Positions 9,064-64,000 of a stretch of DNA of 64,000 bases are shown piece after piece. The position numbers and the translations under genes are program-made. Position 1 is the first letter of the stretch. Every line of letters starts with the position of its first letter. The notes under the pieces were generated by a model. The model saw only the letters and a program-made list of their open reading frames with translations. It was not told the origin of the DNA and did no database searches. This DNA is from Flavobacterium undicola (lineage in GTDB: Bacteria; Bacteroidota; Bacteroidia; Flavobacteriales; Flavobacteriaceae): positions 1 through 64,000 of the forward strand of contig NZ_JAAAPM020000012.1 of assembly GCF_009909155.2 (NCBI RefSeq). The letters are read 5' to 3'.

Positions 9064-10068
9064 ATGGACGAAGTCATAAAAATTGTAAACGATATAAAAG
9101 CGGGTAACATCAAACCTATTTATTTTTTGATGGGGGAGGAACCTTATTATATAGATAAGTTATCGGATTATATTGAAGAAAATATTTTGTCTGAAGACGA
9201 AAAAGGATTCAATCAAACGGTGATGTATGGCAGGGATGTATCGGTTGAAGATATTGTTTCGACAGCTAAGCGTTACCCAATGATGGCGGAGCGTCAGGTT
9301 GTGATTGTAAAAGAGGCTCAGGATTTGACTAAAACAATTGACAGATTAGAAAGCTATGCCGAAAACCCAATGACTTCAACGGTTTTAGTACTTTGTTACA
9401 AATACAAAACCCTGGATAAAAGGAAAAAAGTGACTAAGATGATTGCCAAATCAGGAGTGATTTTCGAAAGTAAAAAATTATACGAAAATCAGGTAGGCGA
9501 TTGGATTAAGCGTGTTTTGTCAGGAAAAAAATATGCTATTGAACCCAAAGCTTCGGCAATGTTAGTCGAATTTTTAGGAACTGATTTGAGTAAAATAAAC
9601 AACGAACTCGAGAAATTACAAATTATCTTACCGAAAGGAAGCACTATTTCTCCAAAAGATATTGAAGAAAACATTGGGTTCAGCAAAGATTTTAATGTCT
9701 TTGAATTGCGAAAAGCTATTGGAGAACGCAATCAATTAAGAGCGTACACCATTGCTGAAAATTTCGCCAATAATCCTAAAGAAAACCCGATGGTTGTTAC
9801 CACAAGTCTGGTTTTTGGATTCTTTATACAATTATTAAAATACCACGGATTAAAAGATAAAAATCCTAAGAATGTAGCAGCTGTTTTAGGAGTAAATCCC
9901 TTTTTCTTAAAGGAATACGACCTGGCTTTGAAAAATTACCCGATGCGAAAAGTAAGTCAAATAGTAGCTGCATTGAGAGAAATTGATGTTAAAAGCAAAG
10001 GAGTAGGAGCTAATGCCTTGTCTAATGCTGATTTATTGAAAGAAATGCTGTATCATATTTTTAATTAG
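9064..10068 (+). CDS. holA: DNA polymerase III subunit delta
   Basis: 334 residues, the standard HolA length. This clamp-loader subunit opens the beta sliding clamp. Seen: the N-terminal IKPIYFLMGEEPYYIDKL, a phrase conserved at the start of delta; RYPMMAERQVVIVKEAQ; the lid-like GTDLSKINNELEKL; and the C-terminal helical collar domain ending NADLLKEMLYHIF. The Walker A motif is degenerate, as usual for delta. A small membrane-protein gene follows. Confidence 0.9.
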   Translation: MDEVIKIVNDIKAGNIKPIYFLMGEEPYYIDKLSDYIEENILSEDEKGFNQTVMYGRDVSVEDIVSTAKRYPMMAERQVVIVKEAQDLTKTIDRLESYAENPMTSTVLVLCYKYKTLDKRKKVTKMIAKSGVIFESKKLYENQVGDWIKRVLSGKKYAIEPKASAMLVEFLGTDLSKINNELEKLQIILPKGSTISPKDIEENIGFSKDFNVFELRKAIGERNQLRAYTIAENFANNPKENPMVVTTSLVFGFFIQLLKYHGLKDKNPKNVAAVLGVNPFFLKEYDLALKNYPMRKVSQIVAALREIDVKSKGVGANALSNADLLKEMLYHIFN

Positions 10069-55397: not shown

Positions 55398-55898
55398 ATG
55401 ATAGGAAACGACATTGTAGATTTGGCTTTAGCCCAAAAAGAAAGCAACTGGAAGCGAAAAGGTTTTTTAGATAAAATATTTACCCAAGAGGAGCAATCGC
55501 TTGTCGCCAATGCCGAAAACCCTGAAGTTATGGTCTGGAATTTATGGTCTAGAAAAGAAGCAGCCTATAAAATTTACAATCGGGAAACGGGAATTCGGGG
55601 ATATATTCCGTTGCAATTAGTTTGTTTTTACGAAAGTGAAACAACAGGAACGGTTTCTTGCAATGGACGCATTTATTATACAGAAACTATTGTTACAAAT
55701 GATTTTGTGTACACTATAGCTGCAGTCAAAACAGATTTATTCAGTCAGATAAAAAAGATTAATTTGGATGAAAAAATCAGTAAAACAAATGGACTTCCTT
55801 TTATAATTGATGCTCAAACAACTATTTCAAATCCCGTTTCTATTACGCATCATGGGCATTTTTGGGAAGGAATAACACTATATATAAATCTACTTTAG
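55398..55898 (+). CDS. 4'-phosphopantetheinyl transferase
   Basis: 166 residues, AcpS/Sfp-type core. Seen: MIGNDIVDLALA (Mg-binding Asp) and WNLWSRKEAAYKIY (Glu and Lys of the active site). It activates the carrier protein encoded upstream. Shorter than Sfp, with no long N-terminal half. Its end overlaps by 9 bp the end of the convergent exonuclease-like gene. Confidence 0.87.
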   Translation: MIGNDIVDLALAQKESNWKRKGFLDKIFTQEEQSLVANAENPEVMVWNLWSRKEAAYKIYNRETGIRGYIPLQLVCFYESETTGTVSCNGRIYYTETIVTNDFVYTIAAVKTDLFSQIKKINLDEKISKTNGLPFIIDAQTTISNPVSITHHGHFWEGITLYINLL

Positions 55899-56493: not shown

Positions 56494-58398
56494 CTATGAG
56501 AATTGGGTGAGTTGAAACTTATCTTTAATTAATTCTTCTAATTCTTTCATTGGAATCAGGGCATTCTTCAATTTTTCCCTGTCATTTTTCGAAAGTTCCT
56601 CTAAGTTAATATATTGTCCTGAATTTTCATTTTTTATACCTTCCAAAGTTCTGATTCTGGTTAAAAATAAATAGGCTTCGGCACAATTCAGATAAATTTC
56701 TGAATGTTTAGGATCGGCTATAGCCAGTTGCTTAAATCGGGTATAAGTATTGTTGATTCCTTTGATTTCATGACTCAAAGTAAAGAGTCTGGCACTATCA
56801 ATTAAAGGCATCAACGCTCGGGTTTTAATGTCAAATTTGTCTTTATGGATTCCTTCTTCTTCAACTATAAATTTTTTGAAGAAACTTAAAGGAGAATTTT
56901 TTCTCAAAGCATCATTCCCCAGAAAATCAAAAAACAAATTATTGTTATAGGCATTTTCAGAAATAATATTATTGATAGCACTTTCAATTTTCAACTCTCC
57001 AATAACCAACTCACAATCAAAGAAAATACTACTTAAATTATCTGTATTTTCTCTTGTAGTATTCATCCAATTGTTATATTGTTTAATCCAGTCAGTCAAA
57101 GACTTACACCACAACATATTACTTGCCATGTGTCCGTTTGGACATAATCCGTAACCTATTTTTTCTAAGGTTGCGGTTGTCTTTTTCCCAAGCTTTAAAA
57201 AGTAATCTTTTACTTCAATATATTTATCCTGAGCAACATCTTCAAATACTAAAATACTATCTTGATCAGTTAATAAAAGTTGTTCTTTACGTCCTTGACT
57301 ACCAATACTCAACCAGGCAAATCGAGCAGGAGGGGAGCCTAATTCTAAAATTGATAATTCAACAGCACGTTTTAAAACAGCAAAATTAATTTCACTGGCA
57401 ATATTGGTAATATGTGTTAGTGGAATGTTTTTTTGAATCGAAGATTGAATTAAATTAGTCAATCGGGCGCGAATTTCTTTAAGCTCATTTGATGATAAAG
57501 AACGTTTTACTTCTTTGATCAATACACCTGGATTACTTGCTTGAGCAGCAATTAAATCGTGCTCAGAAATCACTCCTTTAATAGTTGATTTATCAGTTCC
57601 GTCAACGGTTACACATAAATGCGTAACATTGTTTTTAAGCATTAGTAATTGGGCTTCCGCCAAAGAAACATTTTCTAAAACAGTCACTACCGGAGAAGAC
57701 ATAATATTGCTTACCGGAATATTAATAGGATAGCGCCCTGTAGCAATTTTTGAAGCCAAATCAGCATGAGTTACAATTCCGATAGGGCCGCTTTTTTCAA
57801 AAATAATAACGTTATTCTTTAACGATTCAGCCATTAATTGGGCAACTTCCTGTGCGGTATTATCAGAAGTAGCTAATAAAGGGGTGGTGTTGTACGCTAA
57901 AGTTTGGAAAAACTGGGCTTCCGATTGTTTTTCAGAATAAAAACCGTCCGAAGCAATATTTCCTTCTGAGGAACGATCTTCAGGTAAATTACTGGCAAAA
58001 TTTTCCAAAAGAAAGTTTAAAACCTCCGAATTATTTGCCAATAAAGGTTTGAAAACTGCAATAGGGATGGCATATACCAAACTTTCTTCTCTGGCTTTAG
58101 CAGTTGTTTTGTATTTATTTTTAGCAAAAAACGGACGCAATCCAAAAATAGTTCCTTCGTGGCATTTATTAATGACACTTTCTTCGGCGTCAGCAATTAC
58201 TGATACGTTGACAACACCAGAAGCGACAACATAAAAACTGTCATGCAGTGTTTCGTTAATCTTGAATAAAGTTTGCTTTTTTTCTAAATTAATTACACGA
58301 ATATTGTTAGCAATCTCAGCTAATTGATCTGATGTAAGCTGATTAAAAGGTGCGTAATTTTTTAAAAAATCGGCAATTTGTCCCGCAATTATATTCAT
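56494..58398 (-). CDS. cNMP-binding/CBS/DUF294 nucleotidyltransferase-like protein
   Basis: 634 residues, four parts. Residues 10-125: cyclic-nucleotide-binding fold (LFKINETLHDSFYVVASG). About 165-290: two CBS domains (NNVIIFEKSGPIGIVTHADL; VSEHDL-like VISEHDL). About 320-450: GlnD-like nucleotidyltransferase (SIGSQGRKEQLLLTDQDSIL, the GS...D-x-D pattern intact). From 470: DUF294 C-terminal helical domain. Suggests a cytosolic protein that senses adenylates and transfers a nucleotide. Start at the ATG 58398. Confidence 0.88.
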   Translation of the reverse strand: MNIIAGQIADFLKNYAPFNQLTSDQLAEIANNIRVINLEKKQTLFKINETLHDSFYVVASGVVNVSVIADAEESVINKCHEGTIFGLRPFFAKNKYKTTAKAREESLVYAIPIAVFKPLLANNSEVLNFLLENFASNLPEDRSSEGNIASDGFYSEKQSEAQFFQTLAYNTTPLLATSDNTAQEVAQLMAESLKNNVIIFEKSGPIGIVTHADLASKIATGRYPINIPVSNIMSSPVVTVLENVSLAEAQLLMLKNNVTHLCVTVDGTDKSTIKGVISEHDLIAAQASNPGVLIKEVKRSLSSNELKEIRARLTNLIQSSIQKNIPLTHITNIASEINFAVLKRAVELSILELGSPPARFAWLSIGSQGRKEQLLLTDQDSILVFEDVAQDKYIEVKDYFLKLGKKTTATLEKIGYGLCPNGHMASNMLWCKSLTDWIKQYNNWMNTTRENTDNLSSIFFDCELVIGELKIESAINNIISENAYNNNLFFDFLGNDALRKNSPLSFFKKFIVEEEGIHKDKFDIKTRALMPLIDSARLFTLSHEIKGINNTYTRFKQLAIADPKHSEIYLNCAEAYLFLTRIRTLEGIKNENSGQYINLEELSKNDREKLKNALIPMKELEELIKDKFQLTQFS

Positions 58399-58746
58399 GT
58401 TTTTTCGATAAAATAGTAAAACAAAATTAGTAAATAAATTAGTTACAATTTGTACTTATTAATTTTAATATAATAGATTTATTTAAATGAAACATTTTGC
58501 AATTTATTGTTAGAGAATCTGTTTTTTTTCGAAAAAAAGTTTTCATTTTAATAGATTGAAATTAGGAAACAATAGAAATAACTAGTTGTGTAATTGAAAT
58601 AAACATAGTTTTAATAATCATTTAGATAGAATGAAAAATTATGAGAATTAAATGTTTTCAGAAGAAGTAGCCTTAATTAAATAAAAGTTCTATTTTACAT
58701 AATATAAATTATAGTTCATTGCTTTACATAACTGATTCTAAAAGAG
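58399..58746. other. Gene-free junction between chromosome and prophage-like element
   Basis: 348 bp, about 80 percent A+T, between the divergent cNMP/CBS gene and the phage initiator gene. It contains the dif-like site at 58692-58719, a second TTTACATAA 29 bp further on, and a TTTTTTTTCGAAAAAAA palindrome near 58521. No ORF is supported. Confidence 0.6.
58692..58719. other. dif-like XerC/XerD recombination site (candidate attachment site)
   Basis: ATTTTACATAA, then the 6-bp centre TATAAA, then TTATAGTTCAT: two 11-bp arms with inner halves CATAA and TTATA. The E. coli dif site has the same design (GGTGCGCATAA, 6 bp, TTATGTTAAAT). It lies just before the first phage gene, where integration by host XerC/XerD would place it. 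The second copy expected at the other end would lie beyond the window. Confidence 0.55.
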
Positions 58747-58752
58747 TTGATT

Positions 58753-59880
58753 ATGGAAGCTAAAAAAATCCCTATTAATATACCGTTAACGGATTCGTTC
58801 AGTCTTAAGATACCTTTTCACTTATGTGAAGTCGTAGACTTACGTTTAACAAGCCAAACGGCTGTTTATTATGAATCTTTGGACGCTGTAGATTGCGAAC
58901 TTTTTCCGCCAAAACCTCTAAAATTTGAAATCAACGGAATGACTATAAGAATCGGACTTTGTGAAATTCCGATTTTTGACAATGAAACTAAAGAAAAGAA
59001 TCAAACGAAATTCATTAACCTTACAGTTTCTTCTAAGTTACTCAAGTACAGGTATTTTGAGGGGATAAACAAAAATAACATCGAAATACTCTATAAAGAA
59101 TTTTTAGATTTTAAGGTCTTTACTTGCAGTTTTGAAACGTTCTTAAGCGGGTATATTTCAGACGTTGATATTTGTATTAATCGCTATTCAAATTCACCGC
59201 AATGTTTTGAAGATGCTTTACACGTATTAACGGCTCAATGTGGCAATAAGCAAAAACATCTACATTTTGTAAGCCAACCAAACAATTTAGGATTGGCATT
59301 TAATAAGCGTGATTATGCTAAACCCTCAATCCCATTTATAAAATTCTATCATAAAGAATTCGAACTTATTTCTAAATCAGCAGAATTTTACAACTTTTAT
59401 CTTTTCCCTCAGTATTACCACGCTATTAAAAACCTTACGAGAATTGAGGTAACTATAAAAAACTACGCTCACAAAGAGAGACTTAAAAAGTTTGGGGTCT
59501 GCCCGCAATTTAAAACCTTAGAGGAATATTTACAGATTTCCCAAAAGGATCTGTACAATGTTGTAATTTTTTCTATAAACTCCTATATCGAGAATAAAGC
59601 AAGGCAAAAAGCCCCCAATTTAAGCCCTACAGACCACCTTATTTACGAGTTAATCCAAAATTGCGTTTTCAAAGGCTATGACTATAAAGCATTGCTTCCT
59701 ATAGTGGATTCCTTTAAAGGTGCAAACGCTCAGTCTACAGAAGTCGCAAAATCCCGAATGAGAAAAAAAGTAAAAGAACTTTTTGACTTATTGATTCATA
59801 AAGACGTAAAAATTCAGAGCGAAGTACGTCACAACGCCCACGTATTAGAATATTTAAACTTTATAAATTTTAAATTATGA
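58753..59880 (+). CDS. Phage replication initiation protein (gene II/X-type, rolling circle)
   Basis: 375 residues from the ATG at 58753 (a TTG two codons up is less likely). The pattern matches the replication initiators of filamentous phages and related plasmids: a strand region with SDVDICIN (137-142), FIKFYHKEFEL (195-205, compare F-Y-D-K-x-x-E of the family) and RIEVTIKN (230-237, the R-x-E motif). These nick one strand at the origin to start rolling-circle replication of ssDNA genomes. The C-terminal third is helical and basic (KSRMRKKVKELFDLLI). First gene of the element; ATGA overlap with the next small ORF. Confidence 0.75.
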   Translation: MEAKKIPINIPLTDSFSLKIPFHLCEVVDLRLTSQTAVYYESLDAVDCELFPPKPLKFEINGMTIRIGLCEIPIFDNETKEKNQTKFINLTVSSKLLKYRYFEGINKNNIEILYKEFLDFKVFTCSFETFLSGYISDVDICINRYSNSPQCFEDALHVLTAQCGNKQKHLHFVSQPNNLGLAFNKRDYAKPSIPFIKFYHKEFELISKSAEFYNFYLFPQYYHAIKNLTRIEVTIKNYAHKERLKKFGVCPQFKTLEEYLQISQKDLYNVVIFSINSYIENKARQKAPNLSPTDHLIYELIQNCVFKGYDYKALLPIVDSFKGANAQSTEVAKSRMRKKVKELFDLLIHKDVKIQSEVRHNAHVLEYLNFINFKL

Positions 59881-60020
59881 AAAAACAACACTTTTTAAAT
59901 CACTACTACAGACTGTTAACAGTGCATCAAAAAATCAATTTAAAAGCCTTTTTTATAAAGAATTTGAGCTTTAATTACGCAATATCCGAATTTGAATTTT
60001 TGTGTATAACTGAGCCTTAA
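59877..60020 (+). CDS. Small phage protein
   Basis: 47 residues, ATG overlapping the stop of the initiator gene (ATGA), a strong sign of translation. Basic N-terminus (MKKQHFLNHYYRLL), rich in Phe, Asn, Lys; no recognised domain. It could be a small DNA-binding protein. Confidence 0.55.
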   Translation: MKKQHFLNHYYRLLTVHQKINLKAFFIKNLSFNYAISEFEFLCITEP

Positions 60021-60053
60021 AAAGGCTAAAAAACTAAATTATCAAGTCACGGA

Positions 60054-60083
60054 AAAAGCCGACCTATGATAGTCGGCTTTTCT
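60054..60083 (+). terminator. Terminator-like hairpin
   Basis: AAAAGCCGAC pairs perfectly with GTCGGCTTTT across an 8-nt loop; a T follows. It ends the initiator transcript or marks an RNA processing site. Confidence 0.72.
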
Positions 60084-60112
60084 TAACAAATATGTTAATT
60101 TACTCTTACAAA

Positions 60113-60310
60113 ATGAACTCACAAATTCCTACAAAAACAGACCCCCCTCCGACCCCTGACTTTCGAGAGAAGTTCACGGAGTATAAGCTACAGACTTCTA
60201 AAGAAATTTTAGTATTGAAAGTAGAAAGTTTTGAAGCTGCAATACGTCCCAAAGGCGAAAATTATTCGAGAGACAATAAAAGAATACATAATCAATTATC
60301 AATTTTTTAA
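60113..60310 (+). CDS. Small phage protein
   Basis: 65 residues from ATG 60113 (a start seven codons earlier is possible). Pro-rich N-terminal stretch (KTDPPPTPDF) then a charged helical segment with no known domain. Not homologous to anything I recognise. Confidence 0.5.
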   Translation: MNSQIPTKTDPPPTPDFREKFTEYKLQTSKEILVLKVESFEAAIRPKGENYSRDNKRIHNQLSIF

Positions 60311-60312
60311 TT

Positions 60313-60340
60313 GGGGCGGTAATCCCTACAATCCCGCCCC
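60313..60340. other. GC-rich hairpin in the phage early region
   Basis: GGGGCGG (60313-60319) pairs with CCGCCCC (60334-60340) around a 14-nt loop. In a region of about 30 percent GC this stands out. No T-run follows, so it is not a normal terminator; it might be an origin hairpin for nicking or second-strand start. Confidence 0.6.
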
Positions 60341-60356
60341 GCTAAAATCAATACCA

Positions 60357-60530
60357 ATGCAAATAACAGAAATGAAACCTACAACCGCACTAGATGCAAA
60401 AATGATTCAAAGCTTATTAGAAAACATTACTTACAGAACGGCACAGTACTATTTGACTGATATTAAAAAACAATATAATACAAAGTGTGTGCTATACTGT
60501 CATTTTAAAAATTATTTTAACATAATTTAA
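60357..60530 (+). CDS. Small phage protein, possible HTH
   Basis: 57 residues from ATG 60357. The stretch LDAKMIQSLLENITYRTAQY and YLTDIKKQYN has the helix-turn-helix pattern of small regulators (DAKMIQSLLE / TYRTAQYYLTDIKK). If real it would be the phage repressor or control protein. A longer frame upstream (60231) overlaps the preceding ORF and is unlikely. Confidence 0.5.
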   Translation: MQITEMKPTTALDAKMIQSLLENITYRTAQYYLTDIKKQYNTKCVLYCHFKNYFNII

Positions 60531-60537
60531 CACAAAA

Positions 60538-60567
60538 TACGTAAAACTACGCAAAACTACGCCAAAC
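60538..60567. repeat. Three 10-bp iterons
   Basis: TACGTAAAAC, TACGCAAAAC, TACGCCAAAC in tandem, one helical turn apart, immediately before a terminator and the capsid gene. They could bind the initiator or the small HTH protein. Confidence 0.7.
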
Positions 60568-60595
60568 CGCAAAATTCACTTTTTGCGGTTTTTTT
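60565..60595 (+). terminator. Terminator between early and late regions
   Basis: AACCGCAAAA pairs perfectly with TTTTGCGGTT and ends in T's. The late gene block begins 51 bp further on, so a promoter may lie in between or the stop is partial. Confidence 0.82.
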
Positions 60596-60645
60596 ATTGC
60601 CAAAATTTGTCACAGATAAAATTATTAATTCATTTAAAAAACATT

Positions 60646-61392
60646 ATGGCACAAATTTATAATGCTACAAACAAGACTAAATCGGATGTAATAGAAGTCT
60701 CTAAAGGCTTTGCACATTTAGCAATTGGTACTGATGGTGCGTTAACTGACATTACAACGGAAACAATCACTTTGTACGTTGAAAGAAAAGGAGACACAGC
60801 AGACATCGCAAGAGAAATGCTCTTAATCGATTTCATCGCTTTAGGTACAGAGGGTCAGGATGCAATTGTTTCAATGGGTACTTTGAAATGTGTTGCTTGT
60901 TGCGACTTAACCGTAAACGGTGGTAACGTCAAATTAGGCGAAAACGAAAAAATCAAAGTTCAGTTGACCAATTTGAAAACGGCAAAAACGTATCAAATGA
61001 ACACAATTGAAAGTTCTTTCGAAGATTCAGAGTTGCAAGATTACACACGTAAAACTATGGCTTCTGAAACCCTTAACCAAGATTTTGATGTAAGAGGTCA
61101 CGACCTTTTAAGCTTGCAAAAAGATGATTCTATTACAGAAATCAACTTTACTTATGACAACGGACACGTTGCCAAAATGGATGCTTTCGAAGCGGAACTT
61201 TTCCACAAGACACTTGACCCAGTTGTAGCAATCAACGAGGCGGGAGTTGTTCAATCAGGTTTCCCTACAAGATTAGTTTTCCTTTTGACAGGAATTACAA
61301 ACGTAAACATTAGAAAATCGGCAGGGGTATTATTGAATTTCTCAACGAGAATCAACGCAGACGATGCCCTATTGTATAACGTAAAACGCTAG
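60646..61392 (+). CDS. Candidate major capsid protein
   Basis: 248 residues from ATG 60646 (upstream frame extends but the phrase MAQIYNATNKTKSD is the plausible start; A-rich leader precedes). Mostly beta strands, with repeated hydrophobic-polar alternation (ETITLYVERKG, VSMGTLKCVACCDLTVNGG, TRLVFLLTGITNVNI, GVLLNFSTRIN). No signal peptide, no helix-rich domain. Its place after the early genes and before a set of membrane proteins and a lysin is that of the major capsid protein of tailless ssDNA or PM2-like phages. This is inference; a jelly-roll fold is expected if right. Confidence 0.5.
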   Translation: MAQIYNATNKTKSDVIEVSKGFAHLAIGTDGALTDITTETITLYVERKGDTADIAREMLLIDFIALGTEGQDAIVSMGTLKCVACCDLTVNGGNVKLGENEKIKVQLTNLKTAKTYQMNTIESSFEDSELQDYTRKTMASETLNQDFDVRGHDLLSLQKDDSITEINFTYDNGHVAKMDAFEAELFHKTLDPVVAINEAGVVQSGFPTRLVFLLTGITNVNIRKSAGVLLNFSTRINADDALLYNVKR

Positions 61393-61395
61393 AAA

Positions 61396-61836
61396 ATGGG
61401 TTTAAAAATCTCAAAATTCCTTAAGAAAAACGTCAATTTTAAAAGTGCTGTAAAATTGGCGGGAACTATTGTTCCGGGAGTGGGTGGCTCAATCATCCAA
61501 GGGCTTCAAGCCTCAGCCGAAGGAAAAAAACAAGCTAGAGACCAAGCCGCTCAAGAACAGGCAAACCAAATGGCTCAAGATGTTGGCGCACAAATCGGAA
61601 GCTATGGCGGTACGGTTGCAGGAAATGTTATCCAAGGAGCAACTAAAAAGATACTTGCAGGGGCTTCAAACGGCGTAAACCAAGCTTCTGGAATGGTTGG
61701 CGCACAGGTGGTAGATAATACCATTAAAGAGTGGTTCACTAAGCATAAATCTATCGTTTTAGGTGTTTTAGGCTCTGTAGTATTGTTCTTTGTGTTTTTC
61801 AGAAAAGCTGGTAATCATTCAAGACGCAGACGATAA
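61396..61836 (+). CDS. Phage membrane protein with C-terminal anchor
   Basis: 146 residues. Ala/Gln/Gly-rich, hydrophilic N-terminal region (EGKKQARDQAAQEQANQMAQ), then one hydrophobic helix (SIVLGVLGSVVLFFVFF) and an Arg-rich tail ending HSRRRR. Positive-inside rule puts the tail in the cytosol or capsid interior. Its stop overlaps the next start (TAATG). It is 3 bp after the capsid gene. Confidence 0.62.
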   Translation: MGLKISKFLKKNVNFKSAVKLAGTIVPGVGGSIIQGLQASAEGKKQARDQAAQEQANQMAQDVGAQIGSYGGTVAGNVIQGATKKILAGASNGVNQASGMVGAQVVDNTIKEWFTKHKSIVLGVLGSVVLFFVFFRKAGNHSRRRR

Positions 61837-61997
61837 TGGTAAATACTGTCTTAACTGCATCGTCAGGAATTGGGGCTGTTGAACTGGTGGAACAAATTCC
61901 GCCAGTTAGCCCAAAAATCGAAGTAATTAAATTAATCATTCAGCTTGCAATTGGTGTTGTAGCCTTGCTAAGACTGAGAAAACCAAAACAGCAATAG
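61836..61997 (+). CDS. Small phage membrane protein
   Basis: 53 residues: short N-terminal segment, EVIKLIIQLAIGVVALLRLR as a single helix, basic end (RKPKQQ). TAATG overlap with the previous gene and the next ATG follows directly, so it is translated as part of a coupled block. Confidence 0.65.
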   Translation: MVNTVLTASSGIGAVELVEQIPPVSPKIEVIKLIIQLAIGVVALLRLRKPKQQ

Positions 61998-62477
61998 ATG
62001 GACTTATTCGACGGAAACGGCAAAAAAATTGGTTACACAGACAAGAACGGAAAAACCGTTTTGTTTAGCAACAACCAAAGTACTTCAACTTCATCAGGTC
62101 AAAAGAAAACTTACGAAAGTAAGTCTCACGCAGAATTACAAACAGTGATTCCAAAGGCTGACCAAAAGAAATTCGACCCATTCCATACCATTTGGGCTTG
62201 GAAAACTACAAAGAGATTCGGGCTTATTTCAGTGAACGCACGTAAGCAATTAGATCAAAAAAATCTTGACGGCTCACACGTTAAAGATGGTTTCGAAAAG
62301 TGGGTTATCAAATTGAAAACAGCCACAGACAGCCAAACTATTTTTGGCATGTATTCAGTGAGAAAAGGATGTTTGTTTTTTGATATGGGTACAACAAAAT
62401 GTTGTGTAAACCACAAGAAAGGATTTTTCTCATTCATTCAACCCGATTTCGTAACCAATAAAAATAAGCGTAAATAA
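61998..62477 (+). CDS. Phage protein of unknown function
   Basis: 159 residues, no hydrophobic helix. The N-terminal MDLFDGNGKKIGYTDKNGKT has two Gly-Asn-Gly-Lys/Lys-Asn-Gly-Lys turns as in short beta repeats; the C-terminal half contains WAWKTTKRFGLISVN and a Cys pair in GTTKCCVNHKKG. A structural or receptor-binding protein is possible from the place in the operon; no family recognised. Confidence 0.58.
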   Translation: MDLFDGNGKKIGYTDKNGKTVLFSNNQSTSTSSGQKKTYESKSHAELQTVIPKADQKKFDPFHTIWAWKTTKRFGLISVNARKQLDQKNLDGSHVKDGFEKWVIKLKTATDSQTIFGMYSVRKGCLFFDMGTTKCCVNHKKGFFSFIQPDFVTNKNKRK

Positions 62478-62626
62478 TGAAAAACGTAACTTCTATAATT
62501 TCGGTAGTAAAAATGCTCGCTAAGTATGGGGCTTACGTAATCGTCATTATTGACGGCTTAAGCTTCATTGCTGACGGCTTAGAGCGAGTGGATAACGAGA
62601 AAAATTCAAAAAATGAAAGTAAGTAG
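62477..62626 (+). CDS. Small phage membrane protein
   Basis: 49 residues: one hydrophobic segment (MLAKYGAYVIVIIDGLSFIA) and an acidic end. Overlaps the previous stop (TAATG) and runs 14 bases into the transglycosylase gene in another frame. Confidence 0.6.
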   Translation: MKNVTSIISVVKMLAKYGAYVIVIIDGLSFIADGLERVDNEKNSKNESK

Positions 62627-63206
62627 CTTTTTTACACAAAAACTTCCTGAAAGGCACGTAAGTAAGGTAATTGAGGTCGCTCAGAAACTTAAAATAGATG
62701 CTAATTCATTGCTTGCAGTAATGTATTTCGAAACTGCAAAGACTTTCAGCCCACAGAAAACGAACTCAATCGGTTCTGTGGGATTAATTCAATTCACGGC
62801 AGATGTTGGAACTCCAAAACAAAAGAAAATCAACGGAAAAGTTTATTCTTTGGCTTACATTAAGAGTCTATCTTTTATCAAACAAATGGATTTGGTTTAT
62901 GAATATTATAAGCCCTATACTGGTAAAATGAGCAACTTTTTAGATGTTTACCTAGTGACTTTCTTTCCTGCTGCACTTTCTAAGTCGGATTCATTTGTAC
63001 TGAAAACATCAAGCTTAAGCGCTTCTTTGATTGCGTTACAAAATCCGATTTTTGACACTAACAAGGATAAACAAATCACACGTCAAGAAATAACGGATTT
63101 CTTTAAAAAGTGGTACACTCCAAGTGTTTTTCAAGAGATTCAAAAGGGCTTCGACTTGAAAATACCGTTAATGCTATTAGCCCTATTATTTTTAATCAAA
63201 TTTTAA
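62613..63206 (+). CDS. Lytic transglycosylase with EF-hand loop and membrane anchor
   Basis: 197 residues. The SLT-type catalytic site is seen as LLAVMYFETAKTF (Glu40), followed by GSVGLIQFT (54-62). Residues 148-159, DTNKDKQITRQE, form a canonical EF-hand calcium loop (D, N, D, Q, I, T, E at the binding positions). Residues 184-196 are a hydrophobic anchor (IPLMLLALLFLIKF). It would cut peptidoglycan during phage entry or release. Confidence 0.85.
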   Translation: MKVSSFFTQKLPERHVSKVIEVAQKLKIDANSLLAVMYFETAKTFSPQKTNSIGSVGLIQFTADVGTPKQKKINGKVYSLAYIKSLSFIKQMDLVYEYYKPYTGKMSNFLDVYLVTFFPAALSKSDSFVLKTSSLSASLIALQNPIFDTNKDKQITRQEITDFFKKWYTPSVFQEIQKGFDLKIPLMLLALLFLIKF

Positions 63207-63216
63207 AATTTACATT

Positions 63217-63315
63217 ATGCAAAAATTACAAGACTTTTATACAGAACACAAGAAATCAATTTTAATCGGTCTAGCCGTTTTGGGAGTGTTTTTCTTCCTT
63301 AAAAGACGTCAATAG
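63217..63315 (+). CDS. 32-residue phage membrane protein
   Basis: MQKLQDFYTEHKK, then one helix ILIGLAVLGVFFFL, then KRRQ. Short, but bounded closely by neighbours (10 bp before, 2 bp after) and with the same layout as the other one-helix proteins here. Confidence 0.58.
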   Translation: MQKLQDFYTEHKKSILIGLAVLGVFFFLKRRQ

Positions 63316-63317
63316 TT

Positions 63318-63890
63318 ATGTTGTCGAGATATAGTAAAAACAAGCTTATGAATAGTAAGCTTGTTTTGTTCTTTCAGAATAACGCTGTCTATATTGTAGC
63401 AGTACTATTTGCAATACCCTACATCATTAGATACTTTAATTCTCAGGAACAAAAGGACAGCTCACAGGCTTTAGATTTAGCAGTAAAACAGAACAGTGCG
63501 GAAAATGCGAAATCTTCTCCAACCATCATAAACGATAAAGCAAAGGTTATTAATAAAAAGTATCCAAATTTAAAATCAAAAGATTCAGACAGATTGAAAA
63601 CCATTGCACAGAAAATCGCCTTTTCGCTTGGTACGAATCCTGAAGACAATCACATTATTTTTAATGGTTCTGTTGAACTTTTTAATATTAGAGCCTTAGT
63701 AGAAGACGAAAATACAGTAGTTAAACTTTTAAAGACAACTACAGGAACTTTCCCAATTGTAGAAGATTACTACTATTCCCTATTCACCCGATCACGTAAT
63801 TTAAAAACAGACCTTTATAAATATCTCTCAGCTGAGAACATATCACAGCTTCGAGTTGCTTACAAAAAGGCAAATAAAAATTGGATTTAG
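63318..63890 (+). CDS. Phage membrane-anchored protein
   Basis: 190 residues. One helix near the N-terminus (AVYIVAVLFAIPYIIRYF, about 24-41) and a soluble, basic C-terminal domain with no known motif (a second ATG at 63348 is an alternative start). Probably a virion membrane protein; inference from position. Confidence 0.6.
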   Translation: MLSRYSKNKLMNSKLVLFFQNNAVYIVAVLFAIPYIIRYFNSQEQKDSSQALDLAVKQNSAENAKSSPTIINDKAKVINKKYPNLKSKDSDRLKTIAQKIAFSLGTNPEDNHIIFNGSVELFNIRALVEDENTVVKLLKTTTGTFPIVEDYYYSLFTRSRNLKTDLYKYLSAENISQLRVAYKKANKNWI

Positions 63891-63892
63891 AA

Positions 63893-64000
63893 ATGAAAAC
63901 ATTAGTTTATATAACAGAAAACAAGAAACTGTATACCAAGGATTTTACAGATATGACCGATTATGAACAAGTCGAAATTTCAGAGCCTTATTTAATCGTA
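63893..64000 (+). CDS. Phage ORF, cut by window edge
   Basis: Open from ATG 63893 to the end of the window (36 codons): MKTLVYITENKKLYTKDF followed by TDMTDYEQVEISEPY and further residues. No known domain in the visible part. The start is 3 bp after the previous stop. Confidence 0.5.
   Translation, partial: MKTLVYITENKKLYTKDFTDMTDYEQVEISEPYLIV

Follow-up and report, generated by a model that had tools for sequence, protein, structure and literature searches.

An apparently intact ΦCjT23-like prophage between dif sites in Flavobacterium undicola

We analyzed a 64,000-nucleotide stretch of the Flavobacterium undicola genome (NCBI RefSeq assembly GCF_009909155.2), hereafter the window, which comprises positions 1-64000 of the 127,614-base contig NZ_JAAAPM020000012.1 (C4). 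At its right end lies a prophage of the kind known from the Flavobacterium phage ΦCjT23. The element extends from 58,697 to 65,340 in C4, with 6,643 bp between its terminal repeats, and its last 1.3 kb lie outside the window. An earlier reading of the window from sequence (the original prediction) had described a prophage-like element over 58692-64000 and had expected a second attachment (att) site further to the right; that site, the true right end, is a dif-like sequence at C4 65,340. The features are given below; L numbers denote loci that carry the capsid gene or phage genomes, L002 being that of the window element, and G numbers denote genomes.

58692..58719, plus strand: attL, a complete chromosomal-type dif (XerC arm ATTTTACATAA, core TATAAA, XerD arm TTATAGTTCAT)
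58753..59880, plus strand: Rep, replication initiator of type T2 with a Rep_trans-like predicted fold, putatively for rolling-circle initiation
59877..60020, plus strand: small open reading frame (ORF) of 47 residues (orf47), sharing 4 nt with the end of rep; the searches returned no relative
60092..60310, plus strand: small ORF of 72 residues (orf72), with homologues in two relatives (L095, L097)
60539..60596, plus strand: three short near-repeats of the TACGYMAAAC type, followed by a hairpin with a T-run, from the sequence
60646..61392, plus strand: major capsid protein of the ΦCjT23 type, 248 residues, double jelly roll by sequence and predicted fold
61396..61836, plus strand: orf146, probable minor structural protein with a C-terminal hydrophobic stretch, homologous to ΦCjT23 gp06 and to the FLiP structural protein encoded 3′ of the capsid gene
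61836..61997, plus strand: orf53, 53 residues, one hydrophobic stretch, homologues in 9 other prophages
61998..62477, plus strand: orf159, 159 residues, located roughly where ΦCjT23 has gp07; a single relative (L062) was found
62477..62626, plus strand: orf49, small, one hydrophobic stretch, homologous to ΦCjT23 gp09 and Cellulophaga-phage structural proteins
62613..63206, plus strand: tg197, probable lytic transglycosylase of the FLiP type with a C-terminal hydrophobic tail, by iterated profile
63217..63315, plus strand: orf32, small, one hydrophobic stretch, homologous to ΦCjT23 gp11
63318..63890, plus strand: orf190, N-terminally anchored, homologous to ΦCjT23 gp12 and a Cellulophaga-phage structural protein
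63893..64000 in the window and on to C4 64,852, plus strand: putative spike gene, named from its position
C4 64,877-65,176, beyond the window: orf99, 99 residues, homologous to a Cellulophaga-phage structural protein
C4 65,258-65,326 (L002 9258-9326), minus strand: hairpin unit, conserved and covarying
C4 65,340-65,363, outside the window: attR, the dif-like partner of attL, a direct repeat

The gene layout given in the original prediction held throughout: the initiator gene and small ORFs are followed by the capsid gene and by a tight block at 61396-63890, with TAATG overlaps at 61834-61838 and 62475-62479. The translations, inspected by eye, contain one hydrophobic stretch in each of the five short or terminally anchored proteins that start at 61396, 61836, 62477, 63217 and 63318, and a hydrophobic tail in the transglycosylase, as had been described. 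The predicted repeats upstream of the capsid gene are also present as short direct repeats at approximately 60539-60568, directly 5′ of the hairpin. By eye, at least three of the five relatives shown (L060, L061 and L097) carry repeats of different sequence at the equivalent place, and such repeats may bind Rep, with the hairpin possibly acting as a terminator. All 13 element ORFs tested read through without internal stops. To the right of the window we found the rest of the spike-position ORF, orf99 and the second att site, and no conjugation or mobilisation gene, which would have refuted the original prediction, was recognized there.

The capsid gene identifies the element. In a tblastn search of 50,697 phage records, the 248-residue protein matched the major capsid protein of ΦCjT23 with 33.8% identity (3e-34); the 14 records hit were ΦCjT23, 11 Cellulophaga phages, whose capsid proteins are approximately 32% identical, and 2 Pseudomonas records at chance level. 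The FLiP capsid protein gave no sequence match in this search. The same protein matched 7zzz among PDB sequences (E=1.9e-37) and a virion structural protein family in PHROG (1.7e-30). Its AlphaFold2 model (pLDDT 93.8) was aligned by Foldseek first with 7zzz (TM 0.91), then with FLiP 5oac and with proteins of PR772 and PM2. A double jelly-roll fold is therefore well supported. The original prediction had named a jelly-roll fold as a test of capsid identity and a non-capsid fold as its refutation, and this check did not refute it. No match to the capsid protein was found in the viral-contig collection, and the single capsid protein had none in the genome-contig collection.

The genes around the capsid gene point in the same direction. 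We compared the 13 element ORFs by iterated profiles with 1,556 ORFs, and six non-capsid genes (orf146, orf49, tg197, orf32, orf190 and orf99) matched genes of phage isolates, in identical cyclic order. The scores were 5e-49 for orf146 with ΦCjT23 gp06 (L003_720_1226) and 2.7e-6 with FLiP_3992_4363; 4e-24, 9e-16 and 3e-14 for orf49 with ΦCjT23 gp09 and Cellulophaga-phage structural proteins; 2e-16 for orf32 with ΦCjT23 gp11; 1.3e-57 for orf190 with ΦCjT23 gp12 and 3.5e-24 with a Cellulophaga-phage structural protein; and 8.6e-17 for orf99 with phi12:2 gp13, alongside a match to an Omtje structural protein. Profiles of genes for membrane helices drift, and those of orf32 and orf190 also match gp06. 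The sequence of the pairs orf146/gp06, orf49/gp09, orf32/gp11 and orf190/gp12 is kept as in the ΦCjT23 record. Isolate matches were found for none of orf47, orf72, orf53 and orf159, and ΦCjT23 gp14 and gp15 have no counterparts among the 13 ORFs.

The lytic enzyme has a different affiliation. tg197 matches the putative lytic enzyme of FLiP (2.8e-57, 34% identity) and four other prophages, whereas it does not match ΦCjT23 gp10, the gene at the equivalent place, which has other best PHROG matches. It contains the conserved E40 and GLIQF and is a probable lytic transglycosylase by sequence; the Pfam SLT score was only 0.044, below the cut-off. Together with the FLiP-like orf146 and the rank of the FLiP capsid as second-best fold, this enzyme would suit an integrated relative of FLiP (Finnlakeviridae), which the original prediction had proposed. 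However, the capsid sequences do not match, the 9.17-kb FLiP genome has no dif-like site (best 7 mismatches of 22), and FLiP does not integrate (PMC13269007). We consider this origin very unlikely, and membership in Finnlakeviridae was rejected on the absent capsid match and dif-like site. What stands of the FLiP comparison is the lytic enzyme, one structural protein and the capsid fold; an integrated relative of membrane-containing single-stranded DNA (ssDNA) phages is what we find, with ΦCjT23 in the place of FLiP as its nearest relative.

The putative spike ORF occupies the position of ΦCjT23 gp13. Its first approximately 95 residues align with those of L060 and L061 and the remainder varies, the ORF of L061 being short (113 residues); this pattern would suit a base with a swapped tip.

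The ends of the element are defined by a 24-nt direct repeat (58697-58720 and 65340-65363, 96% identical). A 22-mer of this repeat with one free position occurs without mismatch at just two places in the 4.27-Mb genome, the two ends of the element, and this unique pair, with the capsid match, confirms that the predicted prophage-like element is real. When up to 3 mismatches were allowed, the genome contained 3 matches (the third place with 3 mismatches) and the backwards control 4; therefore, only exact matches were counted. The arms of attL were assigned by analogy with E. coli dif. The two sites differ in the window element by an A at 58702 and a C at the equivalent attR position; attR appears to be a hybrid whose XerC arm is degenerate. 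Neither att site shows damage. No recombinase or integrase was recognized among the ORFs of the element, and the 8 tyrosine-recombinase matches in the genome are all on other contigs. Therefore, integration was most likely carried out by the host XerC/XerD. On the contig, cumulative GC skew reaches its maximum at 55,792, 2.9 kb from attL, as is expected near a replication terminus. Adjoining attL on the minus strand (window 56494-58398) is a gene that presumably encodes a cNMP/CBS-domain protein.

The same arrangement recurs in relatives. Of 398 genomes sampled from the genus, 45 carry the capsid gene; across the family, it is present in 3 of 299 genomes that represent 236 genera. Both counts include the window genome. 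With up to 4 mismatches allowed in 21 positions, dif-like sites flank the capsid gene on its own strand in 41 of the 45 loci, compared with 1 such site in 318,818 bases of a base-shuffled control. The upstream copy is of the host type, TATTTTACATAA, in all 41, and the downstream copy carries CATAC in 36 of them, as does the single site of ΦCjT23 itself. A wider dif pattern (one mismatch, 31 genomes) matched many non-dif places and was excluded from these counts. Among the other four loci, L081 and L103 are cut by contig ends, and L094 and L096 have no dif-like sites on that strand. In the latter two, which carry T1 Reps (see below), an exact dif of the host type lies past the element on the other strand, so both look inverted; L094 also has a weaker partner site (6 of 26 mismatches).

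A homologue of the host gene that adjoins attL (51-100% identical) is present in 43 of the 45 fetched capsid stretches; therefore, the cNMP/CBS-type gene is a stable neighbour of dif in Flavobacterium. In the most divergent case (L102, 51% identical), the gene lies approximately 3.8 kb from the dif-like site. Genome G005 contains the flanking gene (91% identical) with one exact dif beside it, and neither a downstream-type site nor a capsid match of note, which represents an unoccupied site. On the right, the host flank of L002 from 9470-9484 onward is also found in three of the loci, L060, L069 and L100. The Cellulophaga phages phi12:2 (L004 5144) and Omtje_1 (L005 1126) each have a single dif-like site, with 2 and 3 mismatches of 22, respectively, against 7-8 at the next-best places, suggesting that integration at dif is possible for them too.

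The initiators of these elements fall into three groups. We assembled 47 Rep sequences, 44 from prophages and 3 from isolates (L081 has none, owing to a contig end), and BLASTP grouping gave 31 of type T1, including ΦCjT23 and two Cellulophaga phages, 11 of type T2, including the window Rep, and 5 of type T3. The original prediction had called the window Rep a gene II/X-type initiator. This was rejected: the Pfam family of filamentous-phage replication proteins, presumably Phage_CRI, matched none of the 11 T2 members at E up to 1. The AlphaFold2 model of the window Rep (pLDDT 77) was instead placed by VIA-align nearest to 4cij (Z 9.4, root-mean-square deviation 4.9, 203 residues aligned), 4cwc (8.5) and 4cwe (8.4), with 5.5 for the best other row; these three are Rep_trans-type rolling-circle initiators of Geobacillus/Staphylococcus. 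Since the assignment rests on VIA-align with a model of this pLDDT, we regard a Rep_trans-type fold for T2 as likely, not proven. Pfam Rep_trans matched none of the 11 T2 sequences, the T2 profile had no match among PDB sequences, and plain Foldseek returned nothing under 0.001; in PHROGs, one of the 11 members, other than the window Rep, matched phrog_702 "replication protein" at 7.5e-4. The Reps of ΦCjT23 and phi12:2 do match Pfam Rep_trans (2.9e-5 and 5e-7), and HHpred matched the ΦCjT23 Rep with a Geobacillus rolling-circle initiator (PMC9719478). Therefore, T1 and T2 Reps may share a fold without clear sequence kinship. T3 is a Pfam Rep_1 protein (7.5e-15 and 2.5e-15 in the two of five members tested) with an HUH-like HPHLH motif. 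The three types show when L060-L066 and L099 are set against the window Rep.

The plasmid-type Rep_1 of these sister elements is the one feature that would suit a mobilisable plasmid or another integrated rolling-circle element, in which the beta-rich and membrane proteins had other functions. However, no mobilisation or conjugation gene was recognized among the ORFs scanned, and the window Rep matched nothing in the plasmid collection (E up to 1e-3), as it matched nothing in the phage and viral-contig collections. The capsid match excludes such an element in practice.

Overall, we are highly confident that the element is an apparently intact ΦCjT23-like prophage: a small phage with a circular ssDNA genome, whose double-jelly-roll capsid encloses an internal membrane, here integrated as double-stranded DNA (dsDNA). 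This is supported by the identity of the capsid, the order of the genes, the two att sites located at the chromosomal dif, the lack of a recognized recombinase and the unoccupied site in a relative. In the route of integration that we propose, the circular replicative form carries a dif-like attP, which the host XerC/XerD would recombine with the chromosomal dif. Recombination at the TATAAA core would leave a complete host-type dif at attL and a hybrid attR, so chromosome dimer resolution would continue. From the circle, the initiator would start rolling-circle replication, and the block from 60646 to C4 65,176 would provide the capsid, membrane proteins, spike and transglycosylase, the last of which probably aids the virion in crossing the cell wall.

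Several observations weigh against this interpretation. Its excision, virion, ssDNA and membrane are predictions from the sequence, no repressor or immunity gene was recognized in the element, and the spike is assigned by position only, its ORF having no sequence match to ΦCjT23 gp13. The window Rep has no significant similarity to the ΦCjT23 Rep in the BLASTP grouping, and hhalign comparison of the T2 and T1 profiles gave probabilities of 13% and 3%. The best XerD match in the genome is barely above the NCBIfam cut-off (329.9 vs 329.6 bits), and for XerC even the best match (293.9 bits, from the same gene; next 285) falls short of the cut-off of 335 bits. The right flank of G005 differs, so the left boundary alone could be mapped there, and a second att site was not found in L096. 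The lack of a recognized repressor would also fit a decayed or domesticated remnant of the same identity that no longer excises or forms particles. We consider this improbable, since the 13 ORFs have no internal stops, the genes keep their order and the att sites are intact at both ends. In-frame stops do occur in 3 of the 45 capsid matches (G235, G386 and G288), but, judged by ORF coordinates, each closes a full-length capsid ORF and does not indicate decay. The element is probably a complete prophage of the kind already described.

That kind was described by Kejzar et al. (2022; PMC9719478), who reported that ΦCjT23 is temperate and that 57 putative prophages of Flavobacterium carry dif sites; the element is not the new family of temperate membrane-containing ssDNA phages that the original prediction had envisaged as an alternative. 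The ΦCjT23-like prophages range from 6,021 to 8,407 bp (PMC9719478), and the 6,643 bp found here lie within that range. The element has a capsid homologous to ΦCjT23 ORF5, a dif motif at both ends, and an initiator gene, recognized by predicted fold and not by sequence, with the capsid gene close behind it. It resembles ΦCjT23 in the capsid, the block of minor proteins and its order, the dif-type attP and integration at dif, whereas its Rep group, lytic enzyme and att-proximal stretch differ, its spike-position protein has no match, and it is shorter (6.64 vs 7.64 kb). It shares with the Obscuriviridae (Cellulophaga phages phi12:2, phi18:4 and Omtje) a related capsid and, by profile, three further structural proteins and orf99, and a dif-like site is present in the phi12:2 and Omtje_1 genomes. 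In contrast, these phages have an annotated glucosaminidase at the place of the enzyme (a Pfam match for phi12:2) and a T1 Rep, and they are known as free phages; the family was defined by genome-wide clustering with six methods (PMC12451628). The virion and genes of CTXφ-type filamentous phages are unrelated to those of the window element. The likeness to them is the use of dif for XerC/XerD integration (PMC9719478).

We therefore place the element as a further, mosaic member of the ΦCjT23-like group and not in a new family. As an addition to the group, it departs from ΦCjT23 in its Rep and lytic enzyme, and the frequency of the capsid gene and of dif pairs in the sampled genomes indicates that the group is common. 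ΦCjT23 and FLiP have been discussed as models for the step between ssDNA and dsDNA viruses that have double-jelly-roll capsids (PMC9719478). Three details of our analysis, the three Rep types, the FLiP-type lytic enzyme and a hairpin at attR, are absent from that paper as far as it was available to us.

The first of these details concerns exchange. In the capsid tree, T2 and T3 labels are interleaved, T2 requiring 4 changes and T3 requiring 3 (L081 was labelled T1 by default). L061 (T2) and L060 (T3) are sisters at 100/99, so the two types are swapped between sister capsids, and L002 joins them at 100/98; its branch is long, which makes its position less certain. Identity of the L002 Rep is 74% with the Rep of L061 and 76% with that of L095, whose capsid lies in another branch. 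Therefore, the simplest reading of the sequences is that Rep genes have been exchanged among close capsid relatives.

The hairpin lies in a stretch of approximately 69 nt directly inside attR that is common to twelve elements. On the minus strand, it consists of a TAnnTTTG box (TATATTTG or TATCTTTG, in which only the second n varies), followed after approximately 18-21 nt by a hairpin of 11 pairs in two helices and then by a T-run. The box equals the σA -7 consensus of a Flavobacterium (PMC9723704); by eye, it has no obvious -33 partner. All 132 pair cells of the hairpin hold, 12 of them changed on both sides (0 of 500 shuffles as high), and columns slid by 1-3 were 35-75% paired; RNAalifold predicts the identical structure. 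Against covariation, the number of double-change pairs (3) and of further pair types (6) was often equalled by shuffles (199 and 179 of 500), and the counts are to be read with a structure drawn from one row of the alignment and inflated by related rows. Pair 31-67 is G-U on the minus strand in six sequences and would be C-A on the plus strand; pairing is therefore likelier on the minus strand.

A covariance model matched 14 of 49 sources at E <1e-3, namely the 12 used, L101 (4.7e-7) and L099 (4.2e-6); the unit of L099 adjoins attR and that of L101 lies approximately 105 nt inside it. Weak matches adjoin attR in L102 (0.85) and L097 (4.7, which scores better elsewhere), and by eye both show the box, hairpin and T-run, so the unit is present in 14 to 16 of the 16 T2/T3 elements. 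In T1 elements and isolates, the best matches had E of 1 (L090, L036). Among 150 genomes searched with stricter filters, 3 matched the model, all capsid-positive. Rfam gave one match at E up to 1 (L002 2600-9500, E 0.46), below the gathering score, which we took as chance. Neither "hairpin" nor "small RNA" appears as a term in the main text of PMC9719478 as available.

From its sequence, the unit could be a small RNA, a terminator or a single-strand origin. We tentatively suggest, as a possibility that we ourselves regard as doubtful, that in this branch the minus-strand unit next to attP, either a small regulatory RNA or a single-strand origin at which the host RNA polymerase primes the second DNA strand, has been kept while the initiator was swapped between two types that look unrelated, Rep_trans-like and HUH-motif Rep_1. 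If this is true, the replication start would be separable from a fixed second-strand or lysogeny-control element, which would mean modular replication for membrane-containing ssDNA phages. Unlike initiators on close capsids beside a constant hairpin make the sequences needed for second-strand synthesis and dormancy testable. T1 elements (e.g., L003 and L070) share, by eye, a different stretch in the last approximately 100 bases before attR. This stretch, which separates a terminator-like hairpin from attP, contains GTTGTTAACAT and TTATCAACA-like words and may bind DnaA or Rep.

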